Assembly (NCBI GenBank): GCA_006503535.1
Contig: QYRS01000008.1
Location: forward strand, 1,302,001 to 1,366,000
Length of the DNA stretch: 64,000 nucleotides
DNA from: Arthrinium phaeospermum
Lineage: Eukaryota > Ascomycota > Sordariomycetes > Amphisphaeriales > Apiosporaceae
Direction: 5' to 3'
In this document: in pieces, positions 32,797-39,333 of the stretch
How positions within the stretch are numbered: position 1 is the stretch's first letter
Layout: each line of letters begins with the position of its first letter
Translations under genes and position numbers: made by a program
Notes under the pieces: model-generated
What the model was told of the DNA's origin: nothing
Seen by the model: the letters and a program-made list of their open reading frames with translations, nothing else
Databases searched by the model: none

Positions 32797-35700
32797 TTAC
32801 GCCGCACCACCGCGTCCACCAACACCCCACTGCGCTTGCGCCTGAGCAACGTCAACCCCGATAGCCGGCAGTTCCCTGCCCCGGCCGGTTGGCCAAGCCA
32901 AGAACTTGGTCTCGGCCAGGTACCGCAGGAAACGGCCGACGGCCTCGCGGCTGATGCCCTCGCCGGCGCTCTCGTCGACACCGGTCCACCGGTCCGCATC
33001 GGCCTTGAGCACGGTAACGGCATTGCGGTCGTCCAGCTCTGGCGCACGCGTATCCGTTGGAAGATCATTTGTCGCCATGTGGAACAGAGGCATCAAGGCG
33101 CTCTGTTCCTGATCCTTCTGCACAGAACCAGCTGAGACAAAAGCCTCAAGCTGGGCCTTCCAGTCGTTATATTCCACTTCCGGCACGTCATAACCATAGT
33201 AGCTCAGCGTAGAGAGATACTCGTTCATACGCAGGCGCGGATGCGCAGTGACCTGGATCACATGAACACCGACGTCCTTGACGTCACTGTTGGTGGTGGG
33301 AGTCTCGGTCGAGACGGGGTTAAAGCTAGACGCAACGACGACGCGGGCAACATGGCCTACAGGCACAGCGTTGACGGTGTTAACTATGTGCGGACGGCAT
33401 GACAGCTGGATGCAGCCCTTGAGCATGCGGATGAGGAAGTCGTCGTTGTTGCAAATACCAGTGGCAGCGTCTCCTAGAATGTAGCCAGGTCGAGCGATAG
33501 ATCCGAGCAGACCTCTCCTACCAGCCTCGCGGACGAGCTGTTCGGATACCTGGACTCTGTTAGCATCATGATTATGTGTAGGAAAGGGGCTGGAAACTAC
33601 TCACCCACTTGGTCTGGCCGTAGCCAGTACCAAGACCGACGCGGCTGCCCATCATGTCGTCTGCCTCCATAACGGCGCCTCGTCCCGTGCTGGTCTGGTC
33701 TTGTGACAGCTTGATGTAATAGTCGGTGTCGAGGACACTTGTTGAGCTGACGAACGAGAAAAGCTTGGGCTTGCCTTGGTTGCAGAGCCTCAGGGCATCG
33801 AGCGTTGACAGAACGTTGCTACGCTCGAGCTGCTTATACCGCTGGACCCAATGAACCTGGGCGCCGTTGTGGATGATCACGTCCGCAGCGTCACCGACCT
33901 CGTTCCATGTCTTGTCGTCAAGTCCAAGTCGCGGCTGCGACAGATCGCCGATGACTGCGCTCAGCCTGTCTGTCCACGAATCCTGCCAGACGCCATATCC
34001 GCGCAAGGACCTCTTGAGTCGCTCGAGGGCGGCCGGGACGTCTCTGGCCCCACGTACATGGGCGATCACGCTAACGTTCTTACGCTCAAGCAAGTCCTTG
34101 ATTAGGTAAGAACCCAGGAAACCCGTGGCACCGGTTAAGAAGACGGTAGCCTTGCTTTCGGGAGAGAGCGAAGCAGGGTCCGCCGTTTGGTACTTAGCCT
34201 CGAGGCTGCCCAGCAGCTTGTCGAACGACTGAGCATAGACCGGCTCGCCTTCTTCCGCCACGCCCGTTTCGCCCTTTCCATCACGCAGGCGGTCGATCTG
34301 TGCGCTGAGCGCCTTGAGAGATGAGCTGGTGTAAAGCGAGTTGATGGAAACGTTAGTGCCCATCTTCTTGCGGATAGTCAGGAGAAGCTGCTGAGCCAGC
34401 AGACTGTGACCACCACTCTCGAAGAAATCCGAGTCAGGTCGCAGAGTCTTGGCATTCAGACCACCGATAAGCGTCGCCCACTGCTCGGCCACTTCCTTCT
34501 CGGTGCTGCTAAGGGCCTCCCAGCTCTTCAAATCCTCCTCTGAGGCTTCCTCCGAGATCAGGGCTGCATCCGGGAATGGCAGGTTCGGACTGTCTACCTT
34601 GCCGTTCGGGTTCAGGGGCATCTTGTTCAAGAAGATGTAATAGCTTGGCACACCGTAGGCCGGCAGCCTGGATTTGAGATGATCCCGAACCTCTGCTTGC
34701 ATCGGCCTGAAGCGTTTGTGGTAGACAACAACGGGTCCAATCTCAGTGCCTTCATCCTCGGTGTCCTGTAGGCCGCGGTCTGCCAACCACTTGGTCCACT
34801 CTTTAGGCTCAGTTACGATATAGCTGACGAGAGTCGGCTCTTCGTTCTGATCCCTTCGAAGAAGCGTCTTGCACTCGCGGATCAAGGCGTGCCCTCTCAG
34901 GTTACTATCGATTTCGTTCAACTCGATGCGGAAGCCACGAATCTTGATCTGGCTGTCCGCCCTTCCCGAAATGGCGACTACACCAGAATCATCGAGATAC
35001 TTGCCGAGATCGCCAGTACGATAGATCCTGTCGCGGGGACCCTTGTAGATCTTTCTCCAGGGCTCGTTGGCAGCAATCTTGTTGTCGGCCTCGACCCATT
35101 TGTTATTGTCGACGAACCAGTTATCCAAGAACTTCTCCTTAGTCTTTTCCGGGTCGCCTAGATATTCGTAAGGGCGAATGTTAGTTGAGATCTCTGCTGG
35201 TTCATGAAAGGGGTACTTATCTCAGCCAAACCCGCCGCTCTCATCATAATTTCACCAACTTCGCCGACACCGCAAAGTTTGGTGATATCCTCCCGGTTCA
35301 CTATGAACAGCTGCACGTTCTCAATGCCCTTTCCGGCGGGGACAATATCGCCAAACTTGTCTAACGCATCCGGGTCTTCGGCGCGGCTCTTGATCTGGTA
35401 GTAAGAAACACTTCGGCTCGTCTCGGTGGTGCCATAGGCGGCGCAAATTTCTGCGTTGGGTGCCAGCTTGCGCAGCGCAGCACAGTCCTTCTTGGTCAGG
35501 ATATCGCCGACGTAGAGGACCCATTCCAGGGAAGGCATCTCTGCCGTTGCGCCTCCAACCAGAATCTGACCCATGGCAGGCGTCAGATGGGTGGCATTGG
35601 GCTTGTGCTCACGGAACCACTCGCTCAGCTTCTCGTGCTGGATGTTCTCTCGAGCCGGTAGGATCAATTGGGACCCGAGGAAAAGCGGGGTGAAGATATC

Positions 35701-36529
35701 GCGCTGGATCGGGTCGTGAGCAATGCCCGAGAGGCACGCGAACTTGGTCTCCGAAGTCCAATTGAACTGCTTGGCCATCCAGGGGAAGTACTTGGCCAAG
35801 CTGTAATGTCTACCCAGAACACCCTTCAAGAAATGTTAGCTTATTGACGTTTTCCTGCCCGCCTATTGGATCTCGGAAGCTGGCCACATCACTCACCTTG
35901 GGTCGTCCCTCTGATCCAGAAGTGAAACTGAGGGTGGGATTTGAGTCTGGTCCCACTAAGACGTCGGGAGGCGCCGACGCCTTGCTTTGAGCATCGGCAA
36001 AGATGTCCTTGCCATTGACCTCGCCGCCCGAGAGGGAGCCGTCATCGGCCATCCGCATCTCGGGGATTTGCGTCTTGAGTGACAGCTCCTCATCGATATA
36101 CTTCTGCACTAGCGGCGCAAAGGGGCCGTTCTCGTCTCGGGCCTTTCCAATTGAGATAAGAGCCTTTGGTTGCGAAACCTCGAGGTAAATCTGCTGTCTG
36201 GCTGGGGGGTACGCAGGGTCCAGCACGGTGATGGTCGCGCCGGATGCGAGGGTACCCATAAAGGCAATTACGAGCTCGACGGAACGGTGGGCGAAGATCA
36301 TGACAACATCGCCATTGGTGATGCCGGCATCGTGGAGCTGATTGGACAGCACATTGGACGCCTCGTAGATCTGCTTGTAGGTGAACCGTCTCTCGGGCGT
36401 GGTAGAAGAGGCCGTCTCCGTCACGCATGGCCTGTCGGGATGCGCTTGAGCATTCTTGTGGAAGATCTCGTGGATGGCTCCGATGTAGCCGCTCCAGTCG
36501 AGATCGACAGTGGGATCAGGGAGTCCCAT
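32797..36529 (-). CDS. LYS2: L-2-aminoadipate reductase large subunit (LYS2)
   Basis: This enzyme adenylates alpha-aminoadipate, loads it on a phosphopantetheine arm and reduces it with NADPH to the semialdehyde in fungal lysine synthesis. Four exons, 36529-35897, 35823-35221, 35167-33605 and 33549-32797, give 1183 residues. Adenylation motifs include SFTSGSEGRPKG (about 200-212), AYGTTETSR and YRTGDLGKYL (about 461). The carrier motif is FFESGGHSLL with Ser667. The reductase domain has TGATGFLG (about 757-764) and Tyr928-x3-Lys932. Intron 2 (35220-35168) begins ATAAGT and ends TTAC; this restores motif A6 as GLAE/EYLGDPEKTKEKF, while a GT..AG alternative also stays in frame but deletes EYLG. 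The roughly 200-residue N-terminal region of yeast Lys2 is absent, and the 658-nt upstream gap leaves no room for it. A TGACTCA site lies upstream. Confidence 0.97.
35168..35220 (-). other. LYS2: candidate AT-AC intron within LYS2
   Basis: This 53-nt intron starts ATAAGT, carries a CTAAC branch sequence at 35184-35180 and ends TTAC. The ATAAGT donor equals the U2-type consensus GTAAGT with A at position 1, so it would be a U2-dependent AT-AC intron rather than the U12 type (ATATCC). The competing GT..AG intron runs from 35216 to 35158. Confidence 0.7.
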
Positions 36530-37187
36530 TGTGGCAGTGGTATCCCGTTATCTTTGGTGTTTGAGAGTATACCTCGCGGTGATTGAGTTGCCGGAGCATG
36601 AAGTCAATTGGTGCCAAAAATAATTCTATATATTTTCGGGCGATGCCCTCCGAAATTCGGGGAAGAGGGGCATTCTGTAGAGTCACGTCACCCCCCGCGG
36701 CACACCCAATACGTTTCTAGGTACAGGTACGTAGAGATGATGCTTATCGATAATAATTGCTCAAAGTGCCCATATTGCCAGCACTTGAGGATTTTTATAA
36801 TTTCTTTACCGTTAGCAAAGCAATACGTAACAAGTAGCTCTACTAGAATACCTATTTATAATTGTCAAGTGACTCAAAGTCTGCCGAGTGTGCTGCCACA
36901 GCCGGTACGCCGATCACACCTTGCACGAGTGACAACGGTCTATCAACCTTATCAGATCTTTGGGATCTTCAACCCCGCAATTTCATTTTGAACCCCTCCA
37001 TCGCTAGGCAGCTCGAGTTGTGATAGTTGCATTACAGTATACGCACAAACACCAGCCAATCTCCCACCTAGCCCGAAACAGCGAAACAGACCATTCTCTC
37101 AAGCTTCAGCCTTTACGCCCACGTGCAAACGGCACTCGACAAGCCCCCCTGCTCTCCAACGCCAGGATCCCCCGAAACACCTGCACA
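36530..37187. promoter_or_regulatory. divergent LYS2/BUD32 promoter region
   Basis: These 658 nt separate two divergent genes and hold no coding sequence. A perfect 7-bp TGACTCA palindrome sits at 36870-36876. It is the binding consensus of the Gcn4/CPC1/CpcA activators of general amino acid control, about 340 nt upstream of the LYS2 ATG. Confidence 0.6.
36870..36876. promoter_or_regulatory. Gcn4/CpcA-type site TGACTCA
   Basis: The match is exact to the Gcn4/AP-1 palindrome in the shared LYS2/BUD32 upstream region. Lysine genes are classic targets of cross-pathway control. Binding itself is inferred. Confidence 0.5.
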
Positions 37188-38072
37188 ATGGCGACGCCCG
37201 AGCCCGCGGCCGCCATCCAGCCGCCGCCTCCATCGGATCCCACATCCGCGCACGAGTTCCCCCTGCCGCCGATTCTGCAACACCCATCGACCGCGGGCCC
37301 GGCCGAGCTCATCACCCAGGGCGCCGAGGGCCGCCTGTACCGGACGTCGTGGCTGACGCCGACGCGGGAGTGCGCGCTGAAGCACCGGCCCAGCAAGCCG
37401 TACCGGCACCCGACGCTGGATGCGCGGCTGACGCGGCACCGGATCCTGTCGGAGGCGCGGATCCTGCAGAAGTGCCGGCGCGAGGGCGTCGCGGTCCCGG
37501 CCCTCTACGGCATCGACGAGTCCCAGGGCGTGCTGAGCATGGAGTGGGTGCCCGGCCGGCCGGTGCGGGTCGAGGTCAACGAGTTCCTGCGACGGCGCGC
37601 CGAGAAATACCCCCACGGCGACGGCGGCCGCGGCAAAGAGGAGGTGACGCGCGACGAGGAGGGCGCCGCGCCGCTCGTGGCGCTCATGCGTCGGGTCGGC
37701 GAGGCGGTGGGGAAGCTGCACAAGGCCGGCATCGTACACGGCGACCTGACGACGAGCAATATGATGGTTCGGCCTTGGGAGAAGGACAAGGGACCCGTAA
37801 ACGGCCATCAGGAGGACGAGGCGGATCATTCACTCGAGGGTGAGATAGTCGTCATTGATTTCGGCTTGGCGAGCCAGGGCAGTGCCGACGAGGACCGGGC
37901 TGTTGATCTATATGTGCTGGAGCGCGCTTTTGGCAGCACACACCCCCGAGCAGAGGCGCTGTTCACGGTGGCGCTGGAGGCATACAAGGACACATTCAAA
38001 GCGGCTCCCGCCGTGCTGAAGAAGCTCGAGGATGTTAGGATGCGTGGCCGCAAGAGAAGTATGCTTGGCTAG
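37188..38072 (+). CDS. BUD32: EKC/KEOPS complex kinase-ATPase BUD32
   Basis: Bud32 (PRPK) is a small atypical kinase/ATPase of the EKC/KEOPS complex, required for threonylcarbamoyl-adenosine (t6A) modification of tRNA and linked to telomere maintenance. One exon gives 294 residues from ATG at 37188 (cacaATGGC); the frame is open 56 codons further upstream but that part is not family-like. Motifs: a glycine-poor ATP loop ITQGAEGRLYR, the beta-3 Lys in CALKHRPSKPYRHP, the alpha-C Glu in ILSEARIL, the catalytic loop HGDLTTSNMMV, and the metal-binding DFG in VVIDFGLAS. A C-terminal basic tail (RMRGRKRSMLG) is typical. A roughly 30-residue charged insert (EKYPHGDGGRGKEEV...) precedes the catalytic helix, and a second (KGPVNGHQEDEAD) precedes DFG. 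It is divergent from LYS2 and convergent with the next gene, 207 nt away. Confidence 0.95.
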   Translation: MATPEPAAAIQPPPPSDPTSAHEFPLPPILQHPSTAGPAELITQGAEGRLYRTSWLTPTRECALKHRPSKPYRHPTLDARLTRHRILSEARILQKCRREGVAVPALYGIDESQGVLSMEWVPGRPVRVEVNEFLRRRAEKYPHGDGGRGKEEVTRDEEGAAPLVALMRRVGEAVGKLHKAGIVHGDLTTSNMMVRPWEKDKGPVNGHQEDEADHSLEGEIVVIDFGLASQGSADEDRAVDLYVLERAFGSTHPRAEALFTVALEAYKDTFKAAPAVLKKLEDVRMRGRKRSMLG

Positions 38073-38279: not shown

Positions 38280-39333
38280 CTAAGCTACCAGCTCCGCACC
38301 GGCGAAATAGCCTTTGTTCTCAATGACACCACGATCCTTAACGAAGGCTGTATACTTGACTACCCATTGCGGGACAAGGTCTCCCTTCAGCCCATTATCG
38401 TCTGTCTCGTCGTCCGAGAGTATGCCGGCACCCAGTTGACCTGTTCCCAGGAGGTCCCGGAGTGTGCCGCTCGGTAGGATGTCGGTGCAGTCGCCGTGGG
38501 TCAACAGCTCGATGCCCTTCTCCTTGGCCAGCTGCGCCAGCGGTGGCGGCACGTTGCAGCAGTTCTTGAGGTTGATCTGGTCGACCTCGGGCATGGTCTT
38601 GATCTGGCTCAGGAAGTGCGCCAGCTTTTGGCTGCCAAACTCGGCGATGCCGAGGCGCTGGATGGCGCCCTGCTTGTGCAGGGACTCGAGGGCGGACCAG
38701 GTCGCCACCTCGTCGGCCTCGCTGCCCATCTTAGCGTTCAGCTTGTCGGCCTCCCACTCGCAGTCGCCCTCGAAGGAGATGCCCGGGAACGACGCGATCA
38801 GCAGGTCGACGTCCGCCACGCCGAGCTCCTTCTTGACCAGCCTCAGCGCCTCGGCGATGTACTCGGCCCGCTGGTCCACAGGAGCTTGCGGCAGGAAGAA
38901 TAGCTTCACGGTAATTTCGTACTGCGACCTCTCTTCCTGCAGGCCGGCGCCCGCCCAGTCTATGCGGGGGATGTAGATAACATCGCCCTCCTTTTCTGTC
39001 CAAGACGCTGTCGTATTGTCGTGGTAACCATTAACGCCGTTGCCGTTTACCTGCTCGTAGGAATGTCCATTGGTGCCGTTGGTTCCGGTGACCGGAGAGC
39101 CGTTGCTCGTTGGCGAAGTGGCGGCCGAATAGTCTTCTTGGGCGGCGACGAAGTTGCTGCGCAGAGAATTTGTGAACTCGAGGTTGGAGCGGAAGATGCC
39201 TGGTTTGCGAATGATGCAAGGCCCGCCAGAGATGATATTCCTGATCACACCTAATTAGTCATGCCGAGACACCCTGAATAAGCAAGCGCAAGACTGGGAA
39301 AACTCACCCTGTCGACAAGACTATCCTGGTCAT
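38280..39333 (-). CDS. glutamate-cysteine ligase modifier subunit (GCLM-like, aldo/keto reductase fold)
   Basis: The regulatory subunit of glutamate-cysteine ligase tunes the first step of glutathione synthesis. There are two exons, 39333-39308 (26 nt) and 39240-38280, giving 328 residues. The donor is GTGAGT and the acceptor TCAG. The join yields MTRIVLSTGNIISGGPCIIRKP, which matches the family; a nearer TTAG acceptor breaks frame. The protein keeps the aldo/keto reductase barrel (LTNSLRSN, VDLLIASFPGISFEG, LESLHKQGAIQRLGIAEFG, INLKNCCNVPPPLAQLAKEKGIELLTHGD) but as a non-enzymatic partner. An insert of Asn/Gly/Thr-rich low complexity lies at about 48-90. The window's GST and this gene share glutathione but are 25 kb apart. 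Confidence 0.95.

Follow-up and report, generated by a model that had tools for sequence, protein, structure and literature searches.

The LYS2 gene of Arthrinium phaeospermum very probably contains a genuine AT-AC intron that would be removed from the pre-mRNA by the U2-type spliceosome, and introns of the same kind appear to interrupt LYS2 genes across a clade of fungal homologs. The intron (35220-35168 in the window, that is, the whole 64,000-nucleotide stretch of DNA that was analysed) falls at adenylation motif A6. The original prediction of a U2-type AT-AC intron within LYS2 at this motif is supported by an exhaustive scan of possible excisions, by the scores of the alternative proteins against the TIGR03443 profile and by the read-through of the intron in relatives. 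The gene is organized as follows.

LYS2 (alpha-aminoadipate reductase), 32797..36529, minus strand: ATG at 36529, TAA ending at 32797; four exons; 1183 aa with the putative AT-AC intron removed.
Intron 1, 35824..35896, minus strand: GT-AG, 73 nt, GTGAGT...GCTAAC...AAG; the spliced protein, PKGVLGRHYSL, fits the relatives.
Intron 2, 35168..35220, minus strand: probable AT-AC intron, 53 nt, ATAAGT...ACTAAC, then 12 nt to the end, TTAC; second of 4,598 in the excision scan; read through in relatives.
Rival GT-AG choice for intron 2, 35158..35216, minus strand: 59 nt; used in the public Apiospora marii model; rank 242 of 4,598.
Intron 3, 33550..33604, minus strand: GT-AG, 55 nt, GTGAGT...GCTAAC...CAG; the spliced protein, KWVSEQLVREAG, fits the relatives.

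With the AT-AC intron removed, the protein scores 1554.5 bits against TIGR03443 (L-2-aminoadipate reductase), for which the curated cut-off is 1030.1, and its top match, the best of 4,631 proteins, is A. marii PG991_003868 (P0001, 99%), which assigns the gene to A. marii or a very close relative. No second LYS2 is present among the matches listed when the 48.4-Mb assembly is searched with the central part of the protein and with P0093 from A. arundinis, the next best match being 29% identical. The A. arundinis LYS2 represents the other lineage and is only about 67% identical; within the genus, this would fit either the sorting of paralogues or the replacement of one gene by the other.

On the minus strand, the exon ends with TTTGGCTGAG, the intron starts with ATAAGT at 35220 and proceeds through CTAAC to TTAC, which ends at 35168, and the next exon begins with GAATATCTAG. 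Thus, all the sequence elements originally singled out, namely ATAAGT, CTAAC, TTAC, the length of 53 nt and the rival GT-AG choice at 35216-35158, are indeed present, the span given at the time (35158-35225) taking in flanking exon at both ends. The expectation that both choices preserve the reading frame holds as well: excision of the 53 nt yields a protein of 1183 aa with the junction GLAE|EYLGDPEK, and excision of the 59 nt yields one of 1181 aa with GLAEISDPEK. If the intron is retained, the product is 432 aa long, the unspliced open reading frame (ORF) continuing after GLAE with ISTPFMNQQRSQLTFALTNI up to the stop. Because the exon ends with G where the intron starts with A, and the intron ends with C where the next exon starts with G, the AT-AC boundary cannot be slid at the DNA level to give the same product. 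Compared to AG|GTAAGT, the donor AG|ATAAGT matches at 7 of 8 positions and the rival AA|GTACCC at 4 of 8. The string pattern ATAAGT-N20-50-CTAAC-N3-25-YAC is found once in the 64-kb window and at least once in 16 of 100 shuffles, so that by itself it is within chance, and the weight of the argument rests on protein homology.

Accordingly, all in-frame excisions of 30 to 149 nt across the region (6,590 in frame, of which 4,598 are stop-free) were scored against a profile built from those 96 of the listed relatives that do not belong to the clade described below. Excision of 35220-35168 ranks second, with 138.1 bits. The first rank belongs to the same excision shifted by one base, with TA-CG ends, and its advantage of 0.1 bit speaks against the AT-AC boundary; ranks 3 and 4 are further shifts of the same length, with AA-GA and AG-AA ends, and to our knowledge AT-AC is the sole known pair of intron ends among these four. 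The best of the 24 stop-free GT-AG excisions reaches 123.4 bits, 14.7 bits below the AT-AC excision, and the best of 36 GC-AG excisions is at rank 274 with 122.6 bits; none of the 24 GT-AG choices scored restores the conserved protein. The two versions of the entire protein differ to much the same extent on TIGR03443, where the GT-AG version obtains 1539.6 bits, 14.9 bits less than the AT-AC version.

The same junction is broken in many public LYS2 models. Among the best 120 of the 4,631 proteins found (each entry being a cluster at 90% identity rather than a species), 24 are distinguished by an insert of two residues and by their junctions. In a tree of 162 sequences constructed with the junction masked, these 24 proteins group together with the window and P0121-P0125 (30 of 30, support 1.0), and a second tree (178 sequences and the 172 columns that precede the junction), to which five unspliced ORFs were added and from which P0125 was left out and P0150 dropped for gaps, recovers the clade in full (34 of 34, support 1.0). 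By a pattern test on these 120 proteins, an intact GLAE-x-Tyr junction is absent in 20 of the 24 clade members versus none of the 96 remaining proteins (Fisher p 3.6e-19, which is a guide only given that the sequences are related), in each of which GLAE, or what corresponds to it, is followed by residue-Tyr. The four intact members are P0005, P0006, P0008 and P0013; in P0002, P0003, P0014, P0022, P0024 and P0104, the junction is broken through deletions such that neither intron end is visible. This distribution suggests that the intron is shared across one LYS2 clade.

Some of the faulty sequences translate parts of the intron, the ends of which can be back-translated from the protein. In P0123, the whole 51-nt intron is read, with Ile-Ser after GLAE, as ISAPFFIRWSPANIRLY and on into GYLND. 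The Astrocystis model (P0017) reads GLAE-I-TNMRLY-GYLND and five Trichoderma models (P0007, P0009, P0010, P0011 and P0021) read (T/A)NILLY-GYLND; the residues in front of Gly-Tyr-Leu are HANNLLY in Fusarium oxysporum (P0018), HANDFLY in Sarocladium (P0019), PANLLLH in Colletotrichum viniferum (P0012), PANTRLH in Niveomyces (P0020) and AAVY in Torrubiella (P0016). Tyr or His thus precedes Gly-Tyr-Leu in P0123 and 11 models (P0007, P0009-P0012, P0016-P0021), and with TAY or CAY as the final codon, the intron in these sequences would end with AC or AT, not AG. Furthermore, Thr-Asn or Ala-Asn, compatible with a branch site [A/G]CTAAC, is located at the same distance in 11 of these 12. At the other end, the Ile-Ser that follows GLAE in the Coniochaeta model (P0015, GLAE-ISLSLL) implies that the intron starts with AT. 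The isolated Ile of Paramyrothecium (P0004, GLAE-I-GDP) and of P0017 is weaker evidence because the annotated junction may fall within that codon.

The same ends can be read from unspliced ORFs. A search with the unspliced ORF of the window as the query gave 270 ORFs; among the best 120, 64 reach the motif by pattern. All five ORFs with the best match in the clade have Ile-Ser after the motif: P0162 (ISTPL-stop), P0188 (ISSPSLIYGPC-stop), P0163 (ISTPRLQITRPLLTFLLRISE-stop), P0164 (ISVLLVLIKIYLLTFDLTDI-stop) and P0175 (ISLSFWFPYTALLTFDFTDI-stop). In the window, the end of the intron is spanned by the codon ACG, and P0164 and P0175 have a Thr codon at the same place, which, combined with an exon starting with G, makes AC the last two intron bases in both; the Arg codon of P0163 at this position allows A or C, not G. 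Thus, all readable starts in the clade are Ile (AT) and the readable ends are compatible with AC, not AG. None of the other 59 ORFs has Ile-Ser: 46 are free of an intron at this point, four have Val (GT), seven, all from other lineages, stop right after GLAE (P0167-P0170, P0172, P0174 and P0253) and one, P0208, has ASHFLL after the motif. A stop in this position is what would be expected of a GA|GTRAG intron located one base upstream of the AT-AC intron. A short ORF from outside the clade, P0198, reads GIAE-Ile-Gln-Arg-stop, which resembles neither exon nor a GT intron.

So could the canonical intron be used instead of, or along with, the AT-AC one? That both would be used, the GT-AG product being a regulated inactive isoform, was raised as a possibility along with the original prediction, and we regard it as improbable. 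Both choices do keep the frame, and the GLAE-I-GDP of Paramyrothecium might mean that the GT-AG acceptor also exists in that fungus. However, the donor is weak, matching at half of the positions, and relatives show no clear sign of preserving the option: the acceptor lies within the CTA-G of Leu-Gly, and the exon of P0163, as reconstructed from the read-through, has no CTA-G, so this suggestion finds no support. Exclusive use of 35216-35158 appears still less probable, notwithstanding that this intron is canonical at both ends, is in frame and is the one in the public A. marii model. As had been anticipated for gene finders in general, P0001 carries GLAEISDPEK and has 1181 aa; it differs from the GT-AG version of the window protein in six residues, with the junction unaffected. 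The resulting protein would lack the Tyr of motif A6, which every one of the 96 non-clade relatives listed retains by the pattern test, and this reading has to contend as well with the deficits in the excision scan and on TIGR03443, with the poor donor and with a TAG acceptor that is not expected in the P0163 exon.

With regard to the machinery, the major spliceosome is the likely one. The donor has TAAGT at +2 to +6 and the branch site is ACTAAC, both U2-like. U12-type introns have the consensus donor RTATCCTT and the branch site TTCCTTRAC, in place of which the window has ATAAGTAC and CAACTAAC. The AT-AC ends themselves and the short distance from the branch site to the end (12 nt after CTAAC) would also be compatible with excision by the minor spliceosome, but ATAAGT is unlike the U12 donor ATATCCTT and CTAAC is a branch site of the fungal kind, so that we consider a U12-type intron extremely unlikely. 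The genome contains two matches to U6 and none to U6atac or U12, the searches for the latter two having matched no control genome either. In a survey of more than 3,000 genomes, Ascomycota are reported to have yielded no minor introns that were convincing (PMC10639083). Finally, a sequencing error or a decayed pseudogene masking an ordinary GT-AG intron, for which two base changes would suffice, can be practically dismissed given that the deposited A. marii protein agrees (none of its six differences falls at the junction), that AT and AC are found at the same place in other fungi, that the gene has an uninterrupted frame of 1183 codons and that it is the only LYS2 among the matches listed for the assembly.

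Under the U2-type AT-AC reading, we infer the course of splicing from the established work on U2-dependent AT-AC introns. U1 and U6 would recognize the donor via TAAGT at +2 to +6 despite the A at +1, U2 would recognize the fungal CTAAC branch site, and the A(+1)-C(-1) end pair would replace G-G in the joining of the exons. GLAE would then be joined to EYLGD, restoring adenylation motif A6, whereas retention would cut the protein at 432 aa. With one LYS2 among the matches listed, lysine production through the LYS2 route, should the fungus depend on it, would require the AT-AC intron to be spliced.

The likely ancestry of the intron is indicated by the sister clade. In the ORF P0234 (95.6% to the F. 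fujikuroi protein P0080), GLAE is followed by Val-Ser, which fits a GT intron that matches the AT-AC one in place and phase; P0190 and P0137, from the same sister clade, have no intron at the junction. Since the sister-clade ORF reads GT, conversion of a GT-AG intron to AT-AC is the likely history, and a single change at the base of the clade is the simplest and most likely version of it. An introner origin was considered and rejected: a 141-base query comprising the intron and its flanks matches only itself in the genome. The AT-AC intron is not universal in the clade because four ORFs of the clade continue across the junction without interruption, namely P0121 (3.6-kb contig), P0122 (22-kb), P0124 (6.5-kb) and P0013 (longest contig 79 kb); along with the intact models P0005, P0006 and P0008, these speak against an intron common to all members. 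The 22- and 79-kb contigs suggest that P0122 and P0013 are genes without the intron, and some of the read-throughs may come from spliced RNA; P0121, which reads through two intron places, and P0006 (Trichoderma) could be either. Relatives of P0006 were sought in collections of genomic and viral contigs that are not intended for fungi, and none of the 24 and one pattern stretches, respectively, was confirmed. P0175, P0164 and P0016, which show the intron, are near P0122, P0124 and P0013 in the 178-sequence tree. Exact loss is the outcome that would be expected from the copying of a correctly spliced mRNA. The orders and classes of Apiospora (Amphisphaeriales), Coniochaeta and Xylogone were looked up. 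A far more intricate scenario, in which the AT-AC intron arose once from GT-AG in an ancestral LYS2 paralogue that was kept across several orders of Sordariomycetes and perhaps Leotiomycetes, spread partly by horizontal transfer and can be the only LYS2 of its host, with the AT-AC state preserved through slow splicing that acts as a lysine checkpoint and not through drift alone, seems to us doubtful as a whole.

The initial notion that such introns are little known in fungi is right in part: RNA-seq surveys already list fungal AT-AC junctions. One of the fungi concerned is Trichoderma longibrachiatum, which we take to belong to Hypocreales. In this species, 69 of 14,305 junctions detected by RNA-seq are AT-AC, with short branch-to-end distances as in LYS2, but the passages used here name no genes and the main text mentions neither aminoadipate nor lysine (PMC4324775). 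Among the junctions of Fusarium graminearum, AT-AC is listed as one of the rare types (PMC3577648). The closest parallel might be Ganoderma lingzhi, for which the relevant passages report 13 AT-AC junctions, one of them confirmed by Sanger sequencing where the gene model had been broken; that intron, in chr6g0094801, is likewise an AT-AC intron of a Dikarya fungus that was missed by prediction, with a domain broken as a result, although those passages do not give its spliceosome type, and in the present case the gene is LYS2, the intron appears to be shared over a clade from several orders and splicing is deduced rather than sequenced (PMC11590231). Extra, divergent lys2 copies have been described in F. 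oxysporum and Nectria haematococca, with horizontal transfer as one hypothesis; they too form a second divergent lineage, whose tree departs from that of the species. That analysis excluded lys2 introns, and the passages considered here do not mention AT-AC (PMC3270093). The extra copy presumably belongs to the clade found here. No prior report of an AT-AC intron in LYS2 was found in the open-licence literature. Thus, U2-type AT-AC introns as such are already known; the LYS2 member, its clade-wide spread and its repeated mis-annotation appear to be new.

In practical terms, these findings correct the model of a core enzyme in A. marii and point to what probably broke 19 further entries in the list of proteins; more generally, a cluster of models broken at one spot can expose a hidden non-canonical intron. 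The likely change from GT-AG to AT-AC, the GT sister and the intron-less members together would constitute a natural fungal series for the tolerance of A at +1 by the major spliceosome, and the simple lysine requirement that results from LYS2 failure would be useful for testing that series.

Two further observations pertain to the gene and its surroundings. In motif A3, which precedes intron 1 (35890-35930), three Apiospora proteins have SFTSGSEGRPKG, and the other clade members that cover the site have SFTSG/RTTSxP, a change inside the clade in a core adenylation motif. The adjoining ORFs at 37020-38072 (plus strand) and 38280-39248 (minus strand) presumably encode, judging by eye, a Bud32-type kinase and a glutamate-cysteine ligase regulatory subunit, respectively.
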